Source of the DNA: Geodermatophilus saharensis | GTDB taxonomy: Bacteria > Actinomycetota > Actinomycetes > Mycobacteriales > Geodermatophilaceae | DNA: 64,000 nt | NCBI RefSeq assembly: GCF_900188205.1 | Contig: NZ_FZOH01000003.1 | Location: 22,539 to 86,538, forward strand | Direction of reading: 5' to 3' | In this document: positions 8,104 through 13,668 of the stretch, in pieces | Numbering within the stretch: the stretch's first letter is position 1 | Layout: the number at the start of each line of letters is the position of its first letter | The notes under the pieces: model-generated | Seen by the model: the letters and a program-made list of their open reading frames with translations, nothing else | Told to the model about the DNA's origin: nothing | The model's database searches: none | Position numbers and translations under genes: made by a program

Positions 8104-9075
8104 TCACGCCGCGGCAGCGGGCGGCGGGCCGGCGCGGTCGAGCCAGCCGACGACGAGGGCGTGCGGCAGCGTGAGGGCCGCCAGCAGCGGCAGGTCGGTG
8201 GCCAGGAACCCGTGCCACCCTCCCGCGGCCGACCACAGGGCGGCCAGGACGGCGAGGGCGGCGAGGGTCGGCAGTGAGGAGGCGGCGGCGAACCGGCGCA
8301 GCGGCCGGCCCAGCCGCCCGGCCGCCAGGTCACCGGCGCCGGCCGGGTCGTCGGCGAGCACGCGCGCGAGGTGCCGGACGGAGTGCCAGCAGCCGAACCA
8401 CACGCCGAAGGCGGCGAACGGCGGGGCCACTCCCACCAGGACCAGCAGGACGGCGACCTCGGCGGCCTCGAGCCACCGGCCGGCCAGCAGTCGCTCCACG
8501 GCGAGCGCGCCGCCGGCCGGGAGGACGACGGCGAGCACCACGGCCACGACCGCCGGCGGGACGGCGCCCCCGCTCCCCGGCACGACGGCGGCCAGCACCG
8601 GCGCCGCCTCGCCGGCGCCGCGGGCCAGGGGGACCAGCAGCACCAGACCGCCGAGCACCAGCGACGCCACCGCCTGCCGCCGCACCGGCCGGCCGGCGCG
8701 CAGGTCGGCGAAGGCGGTCTCGCCGGTGCCGAAGTGCCAGACGGACAGGGCGACGAACGCGAGCAGCGCGGGAGCGGGCGCGGCGCGGAAGAGCAGCCAG
8801 GCGAGCGTGGCGACGGCGGCGTAGCCGAGGGCGAACAGCGCCGTCCGGGGCGGCCGCCAGCCCAGCCGGTGGGCCGGGACGAGGTGGTCGGCGGCGCCGT
8901 GGGGGAGACCGAGCAGCAGTCCGGCGACCAGGGGCACCCACGCGAGGTCCCCCCAGCCCACCGCCACCTCGACGGCGACGACGGCGAGCGCCGCGCCGAG
9001 CGAGACGGCCGTGGCCGCCCGGGCCGGCGCGGCGAACGGCGTCGCCGCCGCCGGCCGGACCGGGGACGGCAGCAC
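8104..9075 (-). CDS. blh: Brp/Blh-family beta-carotene 15,15'-dioxygenase (retinal formation)
   Basis: The roughly 323-residue protein is very hydrophobic and carries the conserved histidines of the family: GLLLGLPHGAADHLVP, LSVWHFGTGE, WFGCWHSVRHLARV and LTLPHALVVGWLDR. Known Brp/Blh enzymes cleave beta-carotene into two retinals at the membrane. It directly follows the rhodopsin gene (start 4 nt after that stop), so chromophore and opsin are made together. The GTG at 9075 is my choice. A longer frame to 9219 would overlap the opsin tail and begin in the tandem repeat; it looks spurious. No carotenoid synthesis genes are in the window. Confidence 0.88.
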   Translation of the reverse strand: MLPSPVRPAAATPFAAPARAATAVSLGAALAVVAVEVAVGWGDLAWVPLVAGLLLGLPHGAADHLVPAHRLGWRPPRTALFALGYAAVATLAWLLFRAAPAPALLAFVALSVWHFGTGETAFADLRAGRPVRRQAVASLVLGGLVLLVPLARGAGEAAPVLAAVVPGSGGAVPPAVVAVVLAVVLPAGGALAVERLLAGRWLEAAEVAVLLVLVGVAPPFAAFGVWFGCWHSVRHLARVLADDPAGAGDLAAGRLGRPLRRFAAASSLPTLAALAVLAALWSAAGGWHGFLATDLPLLAALTLPHALVVGWLDRAGPPPAAAA

Positions 9076-9079
9076 GGCC

Positions 9080-10123
9080 TCAGCGCCGGTCGGTCGCCGT
9101 GCGCGTGGCCCCGCCGCGGCCGTCCCGACCGTCGGGACCGTGCCGGTCGTGCTCGTGCCGGTCGTGCTCGTGCCGGTCGTGCTCGTGCCGGTCGCGCTCG
9201 ACCCAGGTCCGCCCGTCACCGTGCCCGCCCCGCAGGTCGGCGGCCGCCGAGAGGGAGACGCGGCCGAGTTCGGGCAGCACGCCGTCGCTCTCGTGCACGT
9301 TGCTGATCCACACCGGCTCCGGGTGGGTGTCCTCGCCGGCGCGCACGTCCTCGGCGGTGCGCAGCAGCGCCACCTTGTGGACCAGCAGGCCGAAGCCGAC
9401 CTTGGCGACGACGTCGGCGGCGGAGTAGGCGACCTGCGTGGTGGCCCACCAGGCCGGGGTGACGTCGGCGAACACCGGGATCGCGTACACGAGCGGGTAC
9501 ACGCCGAAGCTCGCCAGCAGCACGATCGTCGCGTTGCGCAGGCTCACCGCGGCCGGCCGGCTCATGTGCGGCAACGACGCGCGCACCGCCCCGGCGAGCG
9601 CGACGTACAGGTAGGCGAAGAAGGCCGTGCTGATGAGGCCCCACACGACGAGCGCGGTGCGGTCGCGCCCGTCGGCGACGAGCTGGGCGCCGACGTAGCC
9701 GGTGAGGATCATCAGGAACGCCGCGGTCGTCGTCGTGAGGCGCAGGTGCCGGGCCCGCGCCCCGGTCAGCGAGCAGACCGCGAGCAGCTCGACGGTGAGC
9801 AGCGGCACGGTGACCGCCCAGTCGGGATAGCGCGTGGACCCGGTGAAGCGGGCCTCGGCGTTCGGCACGTACACGCCGTCGGTGAGCGTGAAGCCGGAGT
9901 CCCACTTCAGGAACAGGACCAGGTAGCTGATCGTCGCGATCGCCGCCAGGCACAGCCCGGCGTGCATGGCCGGCCGGTAGCGGCGGCCGACCTCCTGCCG
10001 GCTCGCCCAGGTGTAGAGGAAGTAGGCGAACAGCGAGAAGCCCCCCGCCATGAGCGCGAAGTGCACCAGGTCGTACAGACCCAGGGACATCGTCTGCAGC
10101 TCGGGGGGCGGGGTGTCGACCAC
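9080..10123 (-). CDS. microbial rhodopsin, proteorhodopsin/xanthorhodopsin-type outward proton pump
   Basis: Seven helices span roughly residues 17-39, 55-74, 98-120, 127-150, 156-178, 196-218 and 225-252. Helix C reads RYPDWAVTVPLLTVE: Asp101, Thr105 and Glu112 match the DTE proton-pump motif, and Leu109 matches the green-tuning position. The retinal lysine is Lys241 in ADVVAKVGFG. Helix E has VVWGLIST: Gly162 aligns with bacteriorhodopsin Trp138, the position where xanthorhodopsin has the glycine window for a carotenoid antenna. The histidine partnering the acceptor in proteorhodopsin helix B is not evident. A tail of about 95 residues ends in HEHDR repeats. GGAGG at 10134-10138 supports GTG 10123 or, with short spacing, GTG 10129. 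Co-oriented with blh. Confidence 0.93.
   Translation of the reverse strand: MVDTPPPELQTMSLGLYDLVHFALMAGGFSLFAYFLYTWASRQEVGRRYRPAMHAGLCLAAIATISYLVLFLKWDSGFTLTDGVYVPNAEARFTGSTRYPDWAVTVPLLTVELLAVCSLTGARARHLRLTTTTAAFLMILTGYVGAQLVADGRDRTALVVWGLISTAFFAYLYVALAGAVRASLPHMSRPAAVSLRNATIVLLASFGVYPLVYAIPVFADVTPAWWATTQVAYSAADVVAKVGFGLLVHKVALLRTAEDVRAGEDTHPEPVWISNVHESDGVLPELGRVSLSAAADLRGGHGDGRTWVERDRHEHDRHEHDRHEHDRHGPDGRDGRGGATRTATDRR
9141..9200. repeat. four tandem 15-bp repeats in the rhodopsin tail
   Basis: TGCCGGTCGTGCTCG is repeated at 9141, 9156, 9171 and 9186; the fourth copy has one change. Because 15 is a multiple of three the opsin frame is kept, giving HEHDR units around residues 308-328. Copy-number change by slippage would lengthen or shorten the tail without breaking the gene. 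Confidence 0.9.
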
Positions 10124-10289: not shown

Positions 10290-10757
10290 GTGGACCGCGA
10301 CACCGACGAGCGGGTGCTGCTGGCTGCCGTCCGCACGGCGATGGGCGTCTCGGTGCGCGCCGCCGACCTCGTCGGCACGTCGCCGGTGCAGCTGCGCGCC
10401 CTGACGGTCCTGAGCGAGCGGCCCGGCCTGAGCGTCGGGCAGCTCGCGGAGGGCATGCGGGTCGCCGTCTCGACGGCGAGCCGGCTGGCCGACCGGCTCG
10501 CCGTGGCCGGGCTGGCCGACCGCCGGCCCTCGGCGGCGGACGGTCGCAGCGTCACCCTCCGGCTCACCGCCGACGGCGAGCAGCTCCTCGACCGGTACGA
10601 CGACCTGCGGCTGGCCGACCTCACGGCCTGCCTGGACCGGCTGCCGCCGGACCGGCGGCACCGGGTGCTCGCCGGGCTGCGGGCACTGACCTCCCCGGCG
10701 GAGCCCCCCGCGGGTACCGGCCGGGTCGGCGCACGACGACGGGAGGACCAGCCGTGA
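10290..10757 (+). CDS. MarR-family transcriptional regulator
   Basis: The 155-residue winged-helix protein has SPVQLRALTVLSERPGLSVGQLAEGM, a recognition segment VAVSTASRLADRLAVAGLADR, and the wing SAADGRSVTLRLTADG. It starts at GTG 10290 with GGGAGG 6 nt upstream. Its stop overlaps the GTG of the molybdenum oxidoreductase (GTGA), so it is the first gene of that operon. It is also divergent from the rhodopsin gene, and might control both through the inverted repeat at 10213-10226. The signal is unknown. Confidence 0.82.
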   Translation: MDRDTDERVLLAAVRTAMGVSVRAADLVGTSPVQLRALTVLSERPGLSVGQLAEGMRVAVSTASRLADRLAVAGLADRRPSAADGRSVTLRLTADGEQLLDRYDDLRLADLTACLDRLPPDRRHRVLAGLRALTSPAEPPAGTGRVGARRREDQP

Positions 10758-13189
10758 CGCGCATCGACCGGATCGCCGATCCGTGGGGGACGCGCACGCC
10801 GTACGGGCCGGGGGAGACCTGGCCGGTGCGGGTCGACCGGTACCTCGCCGACGGCCTGACCGACGGCGACGTCGACCGCTGGGTGCCCTCGGCGTCGATC
10901 CTGCACAGCAACGGCGACGGGCTGGACATCGCGGTCAAGGACGGCCGCATCGTCGGCGTCCGCGGCCGCGCGGAGGACCGGGTCAACCACGGCCGGCTCG
11001 ACCCCAAGGACCTCTACGGCTGGCAGGCCAACCACTCCCCTGACCGGCTCACCCGGCCGCTCGTCCGGCGCGACGGCGAGCTGGTGGAGACCGACTGGGA
11101 CACCGCGATGGACGCCGTCGCCGGCCGCTGCCGGGAGCTGCTCGACGAGCAGGGCCCCAGCGCGGTCGGCTTCTACACCTCCGGCCAGCTCTTCCTCGAG
11201 GAGTACTACACGCTCGGGCTGATCGCCCACGGCGGCATCGGCACCAACCACGTCGACGGCAACACCCGGCTGTGCACCGCCACCGCCGCGGCCGCGCTGA
11301 AGGAGACCTTCGGCTGCGACGGCCAGCCGGGCAGCTACACCGACGTCGACTCCGCCGACGTCATCGCGCTGTTCGGGCACAACGTCGCCGAGACGCAGAC
11401 GGTGCTGTGGATGCGGATCCTCGACCGGCTGACCGGGCCGAACCCGCCGGCCGTCGTCTGCGTCGACCCGCGCGAGACGCCGGTGGCCCGGGCCGCGACG
11501 GTGCACCTGGCCCCGCGGCCGGGCACCAACGTGGTGCTGATGAACGCGCTGCTGCACGAGGTCGTCGGCAACGGCTGGATCGACCGGGAGTACGTCGAGG
11601 CCCACACCGTCGGCTTCGAGGAGCTCGAGAAGCGGCTGCGGGACTACCCGCCCGAGGTGGCCGAGCAGGTGTGCGACGTCCCGGCCGCGCAGGTCCGCGA
11701 GGCCGCCCGGGTCCTGGGCACCGCGCAGCGGCTGCTGTCGACCGTGCTGCAGGGCTTCTACCAGTCCCACCAGGCCACCGCCGCCGCCGTCCAGGTCAAC
11801 AACCTCAACGTCGTCCGCGGCATGCTCGGCAAGCCCGGCTGCGGGATCCTGCAGATGAACGGCCAGCCCACCGCCGAGAACACCCGCGAGGCCGGCGCCG
11901 ACGGCGACCTCGCCGGCTTCCGCAACTGGTCCGACGACGCGCAGGTCGCCGACCTGGCCCGGGTGTGGAACCTCGACCCGATGGACATCCCGCACTACTC
12001 GCCGCCCACGCACGCGATGCAGATGTTCCGGCACGCCGAGGAGGGGTCGCTGCGCTGGCTGTACGTCACCGCCACCAACCCCGCGGTGTCACTGCCCGAG
12101 GCGGGCCGCATCCGGTCGATCCTCGCGCAGGAGCGGCTCTTCCTCGTCGTCCAGGACCTCTTCCTGACCGAGACCGCGCAGCTGGCCGACGTCGTGCTGC
12201 CCGCCGCCACGTGGGGGGAGAAGACCGGCACCTTCACCAACGTCGACCGCACGGTGCACCTGTCGGAGAAGGCGGTCGACCCGCCCGGCGAGGCCCGCGC
12301 CGACCTCGACATCCTCGTCGACCTCGCCCGCCGGCTCGACCTCCGGGACAAGGACGGCGCCCCGCTGGTGAAGTGGAGCGACCCCGAGGGCGCCTTCGAG
12401 GGCTGGAAGGAGTGCTCGCGCGGCCGGCCCTGCGACTACAGCGGGCTGTCCTACGCCCGGCTGCGCGAGCACAACGGCATCCAGTGGCCGGTCACCGACG
12501 ACGCGCCCGACGGCACCGAGCGGCTCTACGTCGACGGCCGGTTCCACGCCGCCCCCGACTACTGCGAGAGCTACGGCCGCGACCTGGTCACCGGTGCCCC
12601 GCTCGACGACGTCGAGTACAAGGCGCTCAACCCCGACGGGAAGGCGGTGCTCAAGGCCGCCGAGTACCTGCCGCCGCACGAGCTGCCCACCCAGGAGTAC
12701 CCGTTCCAGCTGATCACCGGCCGGACGCTCTACCAGTTCCACACCCGCACCAAGACCGCCCGGGCGCCACAGCTGCAGGCGGCCGCGCCCGACGTGTGGG
12801 TGGAGATGTCGGTCTCCGACGCCGCCGACCGCGGCCTCGGCGAGGGCGACCTGCTGGAGGTGTGCACCGCGCGCGGCCGGGTCGAGGCGCGGCTGCGGGT
12901 CAGCGGCATCCGGCCCGGGGTGCTGTTCCTGCCCTTCCACTACGGCTGGTGGGACTCCCCGGACGGGCAGCGGGCGGCCAACGAGCTCACCCCGACCGAC
13001 TGGGACCCGGTGTCCAAGCAGCCGATCTTCAAGACGGCGGCCGCGGCGGTGACCCTGCTGGCGGCCTCCGGCGGCACGCCGTCCCCCGCGCCGACGACGA
13101 CCGGTTCCCGCCCCGTGGCCGCGGACGTGCCGCCCACCCGCGGCGGCGAGGCGGCGCTGGCCGAGGAGACCGTCGGGGGTGCGCGGTGA
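10754..13189 (+). CDS. bis-MGD molybdenum oxidoreductase (nitrate reductase-like) lacking all [4Fe-4S] cysteines
   Basis: The 811-residue protein follows the NasA/NarB/formate dehydrogenase layout: N-terminal domain, molybdopterin domains (residues about 100-620) and a C-terminal dinucleotide-binding domain (about 660-770, containing YPFQLITGRTLYQFHTRTKT). NTRLCTATAA supplies Cys174, the expected Mo ligand. The N-terminal cluster site normally reads C-x2-C-x3-C-x27-C; here the same spacing is S48-x2-H51-x3-D55-x27-D83, so none of the four cysteines remains while flanking residues (DIAVKDGRIVGVRG, then GRL) are well conserved. No Tat signal is seen, so it is cytoplasmic. The last 40 residues are low-complexity. 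Start and stop overlap neighbours as GTGA, forming an operon with MarR and the next gene. Substrate and electron donor are unknown. Confidence 0.88.
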   Translation: MTRIDRIADPWGTRTPYGPGETWPVRVDRYLADGLTDGDVDRWVPSASILHSNGDGLDIAVKDGRIVGVRGRAEDRVNHGRLDPKDLYGWQANHSPDRLTRPLVRRDGELVETDWDTAMDAVAGRCRELLDEQGPSAVGFYTSGQLFLEEYYTLGLIAHGGIGTNHVDGNTRLCTATAAAALKETFGCDGQPGSYTDVDSADVIALFGHNVAETQTVLWMRILDRLTGPNPPAVVCVDPRETPVARAATVHLAPRPGTNVVLMNALLHEVVGNGWIDREYVEAHTVGFEELEKRLRDYPPEVAEQVCDVPAAQVREAARVLGTAQRLLSTVLQGFYQSHQATAAAVQVNNLNVVRGMLGKPGCGILQMNGQPTAENTREAGADGDLAGFRNWSDDAQVADLARVWNLDPMDIPHYSPPTHAMQMFRHAEEGSLRWLYVTATNPAVSLPEAGRIRSILAQERLFLVVQDLFLTETAQLADVVLPAATWGEKTGTFTNVDRTVHLSEKAVDPPGEARADLDILVDLARRLDLRDKDGAPLVKWSDPEGAFEGWKECSRGRPCDYSGLSYARLREHNGIQWPVTDDAPDGTERLYVDGRFHAAPDYCESYGRDLVTGAPLDDVEYKALNPDGKAVLKAAEYLPPHELPTQEYPFQLITGRTLYQFHTRTKTARAPQLQAAAPDVWVEMSVSDAADRGLGEGDLLEVCTARGRVEARLRVSGIRPGVLFLPFHYGWWDSPDGQRAANELTPTDWDPVSKQPIFKTAAAAVTLLAASGGTPSPAPTTTGSRPVAADVPPTRGGEAALAEETVGGAR

Positions 13190-13668
13190 AGCTGGGACTG
13201 GCCATCGAGGAGCTGCACCGGTCGGAGTCGCACCTGGCGCGCAGCCTGCTGGCGGTGTCCGACCGGCACGCGGCGGACCACGAGATCTTCCACGTCGCTC
13301 GGGACCTCGCCGGCTGGTCGCGGCGCCACGTCGCCGAGCTGGCGCGCACCGGCCGCGACTTCGGCGTCGAGCTGGACCCGGAGCCGCCGGAGGACCCCGG
13401 CGTCCTGGAGCGCGTCCGGCAGGCGACGTCGGACCGGCTCGGCCGGCGGCCCGAGCCCGGGCTGCTGCTGCTCGCCGACCTGCGCCACGTGCACCGGCAG
13501 GCGGCCGGCGTCTCGCTGGACTGGGAGCTGCTGGCCCAGGCCGCCCAGGGGGCGCGCAAGCGGGAGCTGCTGGAGCTGGCGCAGCGCTGCCACCCGGACA
13601 CGCTGCGGCAGATGCGGTGGGCCAACGCCCAGCTCAAGGAGTCCGCGACCCAGGTCCTCACGAGCTGA
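13186..13668 (+). CDS. small all-helical protein co-transcribed with the molybdenum oxidoreductase
   Basis: The 160-residue protein is predicted to be nearly all helix, possibly a four-helix bundle. The N-terminal helices read AIEELHRSESHLARSLL and then DHEIFHVARDLAGWSRRHV; the second contains an E33-x-x-H36 pair like that of ferritin-like diiron proteins, with Glu9/Glu14 available in helix one. A matching second E-x-x-H is not evident, so metal binding is only a possibility. There is no signal peptide. The start overlaps the upstream stop (GTGA), which ties it tightly to the molybdoenzyme; a subunit, chaperone or electron-transfer partner is plausible. I do not recognise the family. Confidence 0.75.
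   Translation: MKLGLAIEELHRSESHLARSLLAVSDRHAADHEIFHVARDLAGWSRRHVAELARTGRDFGVELDPEPPEDPGVLERVRQATSDRLGRRPEPGLLLLADLRHVHRQAAGVSLDWELLAQAAQGARKRELLELAQRCHPDTLRQMRWANAQLKESATQVLTS

Follow-up and report, generated by a model that had tools for sequence, protein, structure and literature searches.

A cysteine-ligated molybdopterin oxidoreductase clade of Actinomycetota that appears to have lost the ligand set of its proximal iron–sulphur cluster

Two members of the MopB superfamily, TorA and BisC, lack the N-terminal iron–sulphur (Fe–S) cluster. According to the accessible text of a 2023 superfamily study (PMC10100899), DorA lacks it too, and the N-terminal [4Fe–4S] motif is not required for membership of the superfamily; the active cluster-free lineage named in that text is DorA, which is Ser-ligated, and no Cys-ligated one was noticed there. 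The systems closest to the one described here are NapA of Desulfovibrio desulfuricans (2nap, 2v45) and NasA/NarB/NasC, which have a cysteine ligand to molybdenum (Mo) and carry the [4Fe–4S] cysteine motif. Here we analyse a stretch of 64,000 nucleotides from Geodermatophilus saharensis (contig NZ_FZOH01000003.1, positions 22,539 to 86,538; hereafter the window), one gene of which (Table 1) encodes a protein homologous to these enzymes over its whole length, with the expected Mo cysteine in place and none of the four cysteines that would hold the cluster.

The reading frame of the gene runs through 811 codons with no internal stop, and the protein has the domains of the MopB/dimethyl sulphoxide (DMSO) reductase superfamily, both by Pfam and by fold: molybdopterin oxidoreductase (PF00384, 203.3 bits against a cut-off of 24) and dinucleotide-binding (PF01568, 97.2 bits against 26.8). 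The Fe4S4 domain PF04879 stays under its cut-off (17.4 bits against 22.7); a relative from Halomonas that keeps three of the cysteines clears it with 48.9 bits. For none of the 25 NCBIfam families listed (out of 27) does the protein reach the cut-off, including the nitrate reductase equivalogs (NF047855, 412.6 against 1100; NF041323, 379.6 against 1000; TIGR01706, 304.5 against 930.55), the formate dehydrogenase alpha subunit (TIGR01591, 463.6 against 666.25), TIGR00509 of the DorA/TorA/BisC group (123 against 1017.55) and the AioA/IdrA family TIGR02693 (175.6 against 359.05). The closest solved fold to the predicted model (predicted local distance difference test score, pLDDT, 84.2; predicted template modelling score 0.89) is NapA of D. 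desulfuricans (2v45; template modelling (TM) score 0.81/0.90, 31% identity). A twin-arginine pair is absent from residues 1–40. We take the protein, with its frame intact, to be an oxidoreductase of the type predicted to bind Mo or tungsten (W) through bis(pyranopterin guanine dinucleotide) (bisPGD).

We aligned the protein with its relatives in 125 rows, 105 of which are distinct Fe–S-free sequences, the window's included (nine rows that were short or truncated were omitted, as were duplicates over the compared stretch). By alignment with relatives that keep all four cysteines (4-Cys), columns 48, 51, 55 and 83 are those of the cluster cysteines and column 174 is that of the Mo cysteine, where Cys174 aligns with the Mo cysteine of NapA. 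The window protein carries S48, H51, D55, D83 and C174; together with the intact frame and the PF04879 score, this bears out the original prediction that the four cluster cysteines are replaced while Cys174 is kept. Positions 48/51/55/83 read SHDG in 42 rows, SHDD in 25, THDG in 24, AHDD in 12, and THDD and AHDG in one each, next to CCCG (3-Cys) in 10 and CCCC in nine; choice by likeness to the window favours the Fe–S-free class, and these row numbers are no census. One further row (L119) is without the first three positions, and the other piece of that locus reads CCC. The left-out rows, at the positions that they cover, are Fe–S-free (L048, L061, L148, L149/L023), CCCG (L153) or CCCC (L034), and L031 and L035, which cover the last two positions only, have Cys at both. 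The identity of H51, D55 and D86 in all 105 rows goes beyond chance, and motif-free searches supplied 27 of these rows (22 from whole genomes, four from plasmid records, and the window itself). The results thus agree with the suggestion of a distinct Cys-ligated subgroup without the Fe–S ligand set: none of its members has a cysteine at any of the four positions, and all have Cys174.

Five residues (H51, D55, K85, D86 and C174) are invariant in the Fe–S-free rows. The His and Asp residues at 51, 55 and 86 are each encoded by either of their two codons, so residue identity at these positions is held at the protein level. Positions 48 and 83, on the best tree, have changed at least 14 and at least 19 times, respectively. 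Whether S/H/D/D is conserved as a clade, the check suggested with the original prediction, is thus answered yes for the His and the first Asp, and no for position 48, which is Ser, Thr or Ala, and position 83, which is Gly or Asp. Nor can all four residues be a new ligand set at exact spacing, since the two outer ones vary and the fourth cysteine is already Gly in Fe–S-bearing relatives; D83 as a conserved replacement ligand was rejected for its many changes and for the Gly found in 67 of the 105 rows. The candidate ligand set is H51–D55–D86, with D86 in place of D83. An apparent coupling of positions 48 and 83 (Thr with Gly 24:1, Ala with Asp 12:1) seems strong, but was not significant on independent pairs. 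When the clade was compared over 811 positions with nine of the ten CCCG rows (all but the distant Staphylococcus row L120), just four positions, 10, 51, 55 and 86, were fixed in the clade (at least 93%) with another residue in at least 70% of the CCCG rows; position 48 also separates the two, as 'not Cys'. The Mo cysteine is followed by Thr175 in all Fe–S-free rows and in 9/9 CCCG rows, and by Met in 9/9 4-Cys rows. In FdhH, K44 is required for cluster occupancy and activity, as given in the accessible part of PMC12176258; Lys85 aligns with it and, in our own reading, may be its equivalent.

Metals are commonly bound by histidine and carboxylate side chains, and the His and two Asp here are invariant while 48 and 83 vary. 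H51, D55 and D86, with Ser/Thr48 or water, might hence bind another metal (one Fe, Zn or Mn) as a relay or a structural plug. The accessible parts of PMC8387239 and PMC8840923 describe the same cluster in related enzymes with one Asp ligand (nitrite oxidoreductase, NXR) or one His ligand (nitrate reductase, NAR, and ethylbenzene dehydrogenase, EbDH), but these precedents retain three cysteines. Moreover, H51, D55 and D86 could equally pair with K85, and Zn or Mn would be unlikely to relay electrons. We consider such a metal site unlikely, and find less likely again its fuller form, in which the cluster cavity would have been refitted stepwise (four Cys to three to none) with a non-Fe–S metal centre of H51, D55 and D86 serving as an oxygen-tolerant relay, the catalytic half being unchanged.

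The original prediction also allowed for cysteines elsewhere in the domain and for a lone decayed sequence, and neither was found. Relocation of the cysteines within the domain was rejected, because residues 36–170 hold no conserved Cys and have one only at 113 (14/105) and 126 (8/105). Outside this region, C560 and C604 occur in 105/105 and C554 in 103/105 Fe–S-free rows, and an Fe–S cluster could be imagined to persist on them, or on the His and Asp residues. However, the three cysteines are distant in sequence, lack cluster spacing and are only partly shared by 3-Cys rows (C554 in 8/9, C560 in 9/9, C604 in 4/9), and we know of no cluster at this site without any Cys ligand; a retained cluster is, in our estimate, highly improbable. 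Decay of a lone gene was rejected as well: the reading frame is unbroken, the pattern holds throughout the 105 rows, and the core is preserved. Of the 193 positions that hardly vary among 4-Cys rows, 117 are retained in at least 90% of Fe–S-free rows and 109 in CCCG rows, where a 90% threshold requires all nine rows. By sequence, then, this is a clade without general decay. That bears also on the idea of a catalytically dead scaffold without cofactors, like FhcB or the Nqo3 domain. FhcB, Nqo3 and ActB are listed without Mo/W-bisPGD in the accessible text of PMC10100899, so such losses do occur in the superfamily, but the Mo cysteine and Lys85 are present in every Fe–S-free row, and the core is preserved about as well as that of 3-Cys enzymes, and we regard a dead scaffold as quite improbable.

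How far the clade extends was followed by several searches. Among 296 genomes of the phylum searched without a motif pattern, 19 (its own included) have relatives of at least 60% identity, followed by a gap down to about 41%; in a second draw, with a 3-Cys query, 26 of 396 genomes gave matches at E 1e-200 or better. A scan of named genomes by two peptide patterns returned at least 595 stretches, and at least 586 of these encode relatives (E 1e-3 or better); the best 80 of them by likeness to the window, all Actinomycetota by title, are referred to below as the 80 named loci. Of 23 plasmid records obtained by a further search, which include Deinococcus, Hymenobacter, Halomonas and Gloeothece, 15 were used. 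Fe–S-free relatives, 62–89% identical to the window enzyme, come from Actinomycetota and their plasmids, and the closest named relative among the matches listed is that of Geodermatophilus telluris (89–90%). The nearest relatives outside the clade are the 10 CCCG rows (Actinomycetota, Deinococcus, Hymenobacter, Halomonas and Staphylococcus).

In a tree built from 62 of the 125 aligned rows (45 of these 62 being Fe–S-free) with columns 43–92 removed, the Fe–S-free rows nest among the CCCG rows, and the CCCG rows lie beside the 4-Cys outgroup (long-branch warnings were raised for L033, L120 and L026). When all 45 Fe–S-free rows were constrained to group together, the tree improved on the free one by 3.3 log units (approximately unbiased test, p 0.581), so a single loss of the cluster cysteines is compatible with the data, though unproven. 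The topology fits an order in which the fourth cysteine would have been lost first and the other three later (four Cys, then three Cys and Gly, then S/T/A–H–D with D86); no intermediate with one or two of the first three cysteines was found among the 125 aligned rows.

Directly downstream lies a partner gene (Table 1), which by tblastn is found no more than 70 nt from the enzyme gene in 110 of the 115 relatives, Fe–S-free and 3-Cys alike. In one of the exceptions, L118 from Halomonas, the partner forms the C-terminal part of a single 942-amino-acid fusion with the enzyme; the other four are a contig that ends too early, L050, whose match could not be assigned a start codon, and L146 and L120, which have no match. 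The AlphaFold2 model of the partner is a helical bundle (pLDDT 90.7), and ferritins are its top Foldseek matches, at a best E of only 7.1e-3 (none at 0.001 or better; 3hiu_D, TM 0.75/0.79). A DUF892 match was obtained for 2 of 64 members, and the partner sequence found no match in the PDB (best E 0.37). Ferritins bind their di-iron centre through the pattern E, ExxH, E, ExxH. This pattern is not conserved in the partner: of the eight partners from 3-Cys loci, at least seven lack the ExxH-like stretch at about 33–36. The residues kept in both classes are H48, D98, Q118 and K151. We read the partner, from its modelled fold, as a putative structural or docking subunit.

Hints at the substrate come from other neighbours. 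A TM_HPP gene adjoins 5 of the 13 CCCG loci (L116, as a fragment that only one search found, L118, L119, L151 and L155) and five distinct Fe–S-free loci (L126, L127, L128, L130 and L133); some CCCG loci end shortly after the partner gene. In seven cases it begins 565–593 nt past the enzyme stop, that is, directly after the partner, and Pfam confirms four of the HPP genes. An FNT channel gene adjoins L151 of the CCCG class and the Fe–S-free L042, L043, L046, L047 and L131 (L043 and L047 are near copies, and the FNT gene of L047 was found by tblastn only). An HPP protein is a candidate nitrite transporter in the accessible part of PMC4137279, and nitrite is the substrate that the two transporter families have in common. 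Because HPP and FNT genes recur, though in a minority of relatives, beside both Fe–S-bearing and Fe–S-free forms, a small N-oxyanion is the most likely kind of substrate; nitrate or nitrite in particular we can name only tentatively.

Taken together, these observations lead us to favour, with modest confidence, a clade of cytoplasmic, Cys-ligated, Fe–S-free Mo/W-bisPGD oxidoreductases that would draw on an external electron donor, work with a small subunit of putative ferritin fold, and perhaps act on nitrate or nitrite. Its ancestor would have been an enzyme with three cluster cysteines and Gly, probably holding a [3Fe–4S] cluster. A single ancestor of the actinobacterial clade would then have exchanged these three cysteines for Ser/Thr/Ala, His and Asp, and the Gly that follows the bridging Lys for Asp. 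A polar network of H51, D55, K85 and D86 probably closes the vacated cavity and holds the proximal pterin, and an external donor bound at the former cluster site would pass electrons via the pterin to Mo, as in the Fe–S-free DMSO reductase group. The substrate would most likely be a small N-oxyanion: nitrate, perhaps nitrite. What the sequences show directly is the ligand pattern and how well it is conserved, how the classes nest, the partner and the neighbouring genes; cofactor content, electron route and substrate are inferred.

Several points speak against this proposal. We infer the absence of metal from the sequence, and the model, which has a mean pLDDT of 71 at residues 51–60, comes without side-chain geometry. 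In the free tree the Fe–S-free row L125 is unresolved beside three CCCG rows and the class needs two changes, as it does in a 60-row tree without two CCCG rows. The 80 named loci yielded no HPP gene, neither an FNT nor an HPP match was reported within the window, and FNT genes may carry formate; Thr175, in place of the Met of 4-Cys rows, means that nitrate is not assured. Finally, no conserved gene for an electron donor or redox partner was found beside the enzyme with a crude gene caller that may have missed others (it grouped the partner gene in 35 loci only, while tblastn found the partner beside nearly all enzymes). This last result, like the loss of the sole built-in relay, would suit a reaction without net electron input, in which an atom or group is transferred between two substrates at Mo, or a non-redox reaction (compare transhydroxylase and acetylene hydratase). 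Yet the 3-Cys relatives, with their presumed cluster, have the same partner, some of the same neighbours and nearly all of the class-fixed residues, so the chemistry was probably unchanged by the loss of the cluster, and the known transhydroxylase is Ser-ligated in the accessible text of PMC10100899. We therefore hold a reaction without outside electrons to be improbable, and retain the externally fed oxidoreductase.

The enzyme gene of the window is preceded by a MarR-family gene, probably the first of the operon in this genome. By tblastn, just one of the 80 named loci has a MarR homologue close to the enzyme gene, and L123 and L157 carry annotated MarR genes on the opposite strand, so the regulator belongs outside the conserved core. 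A DevR/DosR hypoxia box upstream was rejected: of 104 stretches only L044 (14/20 letters) beat all 50 shuffles, as chance gives, and the best score in the window was equalled by 23 and 50 of 50 shuffles. The host genome (4.9 Mb) has MoaA-type and FdhD genes and one NIR_SIR frame; a molybdopterin domain was matched five times, twice within the same frame.

Table 1. Features of the window, with positions counted from its first nucleotide; counts refer to the 105 Fe–S-free rows unless stated otherwise
Feature	Coordinates	Strand	Remarks
Fe–S-free molybdopterin oxidoreductase, 811 aa (P0001)	10754..13189	+	Pfam, fold; GTG start overlaps MarR stop by 4 nt
Codon 48, first former Fe–S Cys	10895..10897	+	Ser here; Ser 67, Thr 25, Ala 13 of 105
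Codon 51, second former Cys	10904..10906	+	His 105/105
Codon 55, third former Cys	10916..10918	+	Asp 105/105
Codon 83, fourth former Cys	11000..11002	+	Asp here (38/105); Gly 67/105 and 9/9 compared 3-Cys relatives
Codons 85–86	11006..11011	+	Lys85 invariant, in 4-Cys and 3-Cys relatives too; Asp86 105/105 in clade, Gly 9/9 in 3-Cys
Codon 174, expected Mo-ligand Cys, then Thr175	11273..11275	+	Cys174 105/105
Partner protein, 160 aa, predicted ferritin-like helical bundle	13186..13668	+	GTG start overlaps enzyme stop by 4 nt
MarR-family regulator	10290..10757	+	Stop overlaps enzyme start; start codon inferred
Microbial rhodopsin	9080–10090	-	PF01036, 91.8 bits
Beta-carotene dioxygenase-like gene	8104–9219	-	PF15461; back to back with rhodopsin, divergent from enzyme operon
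15-bp tandem repeat	9139–9200		4.1 copies, 97% matches

The rhodopsin and dioxygenase-like genes upstream of the operon may provide a light-driven pump together with the retinal that it needs. Of the 80 named loci, only L054 and L069 have this pair close to the enzyme gene. The tandem repeat falls where the C-terminal tail of the rhodopsin repeats D-R-H-E-H.

Some observations concern the plasmid-borne relatives. Relatives at least 57% identical are present on 20 of the 23 plasmid records (from Actinomycetota, Deinococcus, Hymenobacter, relatives of Halomonas and a cyanobacterium) and some adjoin transposase genes, which suggests spread via plasmids. On Curtobacterium plasmid D40 (L155, 9466–11481) the 3-Cys enzyme, partner and HPP genes are followed by genes for an NTP-transferase and a molybdopterin-binding protein, in what looks like a small plasmid-borne cofactor-making set. 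On plasmid Cy782201 of Gloeothece verrucosa PCC 7822 (L119, 6001–8559) the 3-Cys gene is unlisted in an incomplete gene table and its frame is interrupted near residue 80, and the annotation splits the partner into two short proteins; the enzyme gene looks like a broken copy or one with sequence errors.

We found no description of the Fe–S-free clade in the full-text literature searched, which mostly does not cover subscription papers. Public plasmid records label its members 'nitrate reductase', which may mislead counts of nitrogen-cycle genes. As a Nap/Nas-like, Cys-ligated clade with an apparently single cluster loss and nearly all else kept, it amounts to a natural experiment on the purpose of the proximal cluster, with living 3-Cys sisters, about 60% identical, as matched pairs. 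NapA and NasA/NarB/NasC differ from it in having Met, not Thr, after the Mo cysteine, and the window enzyme falls far under the NCBIfam cut-offs. Formate dehydrogenases generally have His after the Mo-binding cysteine or selenocysteine, as 7qv7_S does, where the clade has Thr175 throughout. In AioA and IdrA the fourth cysteine is lost. Going by the accessible text of PMC10100899, these two hold a [3Fe–4S] cluster, which the 3-Cys relatives may share, and, unlike the clade, have no amino-acid Mo ligand. NarG and EbdA (His) and NXR (Asp) have a non-Cys ligand at one position of their FS0 cluster, but in the parts of the sources consulted three cysteines and the cluster remain. NasN of M. smegmatis is a 1351-amino-acid enzyme of other make-up in the accessible part of PMC7816997. 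The 3-Cys 'nitrate reductases' of Deinococcus, Hymenobacter, Halomonas, Curtobacterium and Gloeothece are 57–64% identical to the window enzyme (the Staphylococcus row 42%), and share with it T175 and, in most cases, the partner gene, with HPP at the five loci named above, but retain three cluster cysteines and Gly86. DorA, TorA and BisC resemble the clade in being cluster-free, so that by analogy electrons would enter from outside, but have a Ser Mo ligand (accessible text of PMC10100899) where the clade has Cys174.

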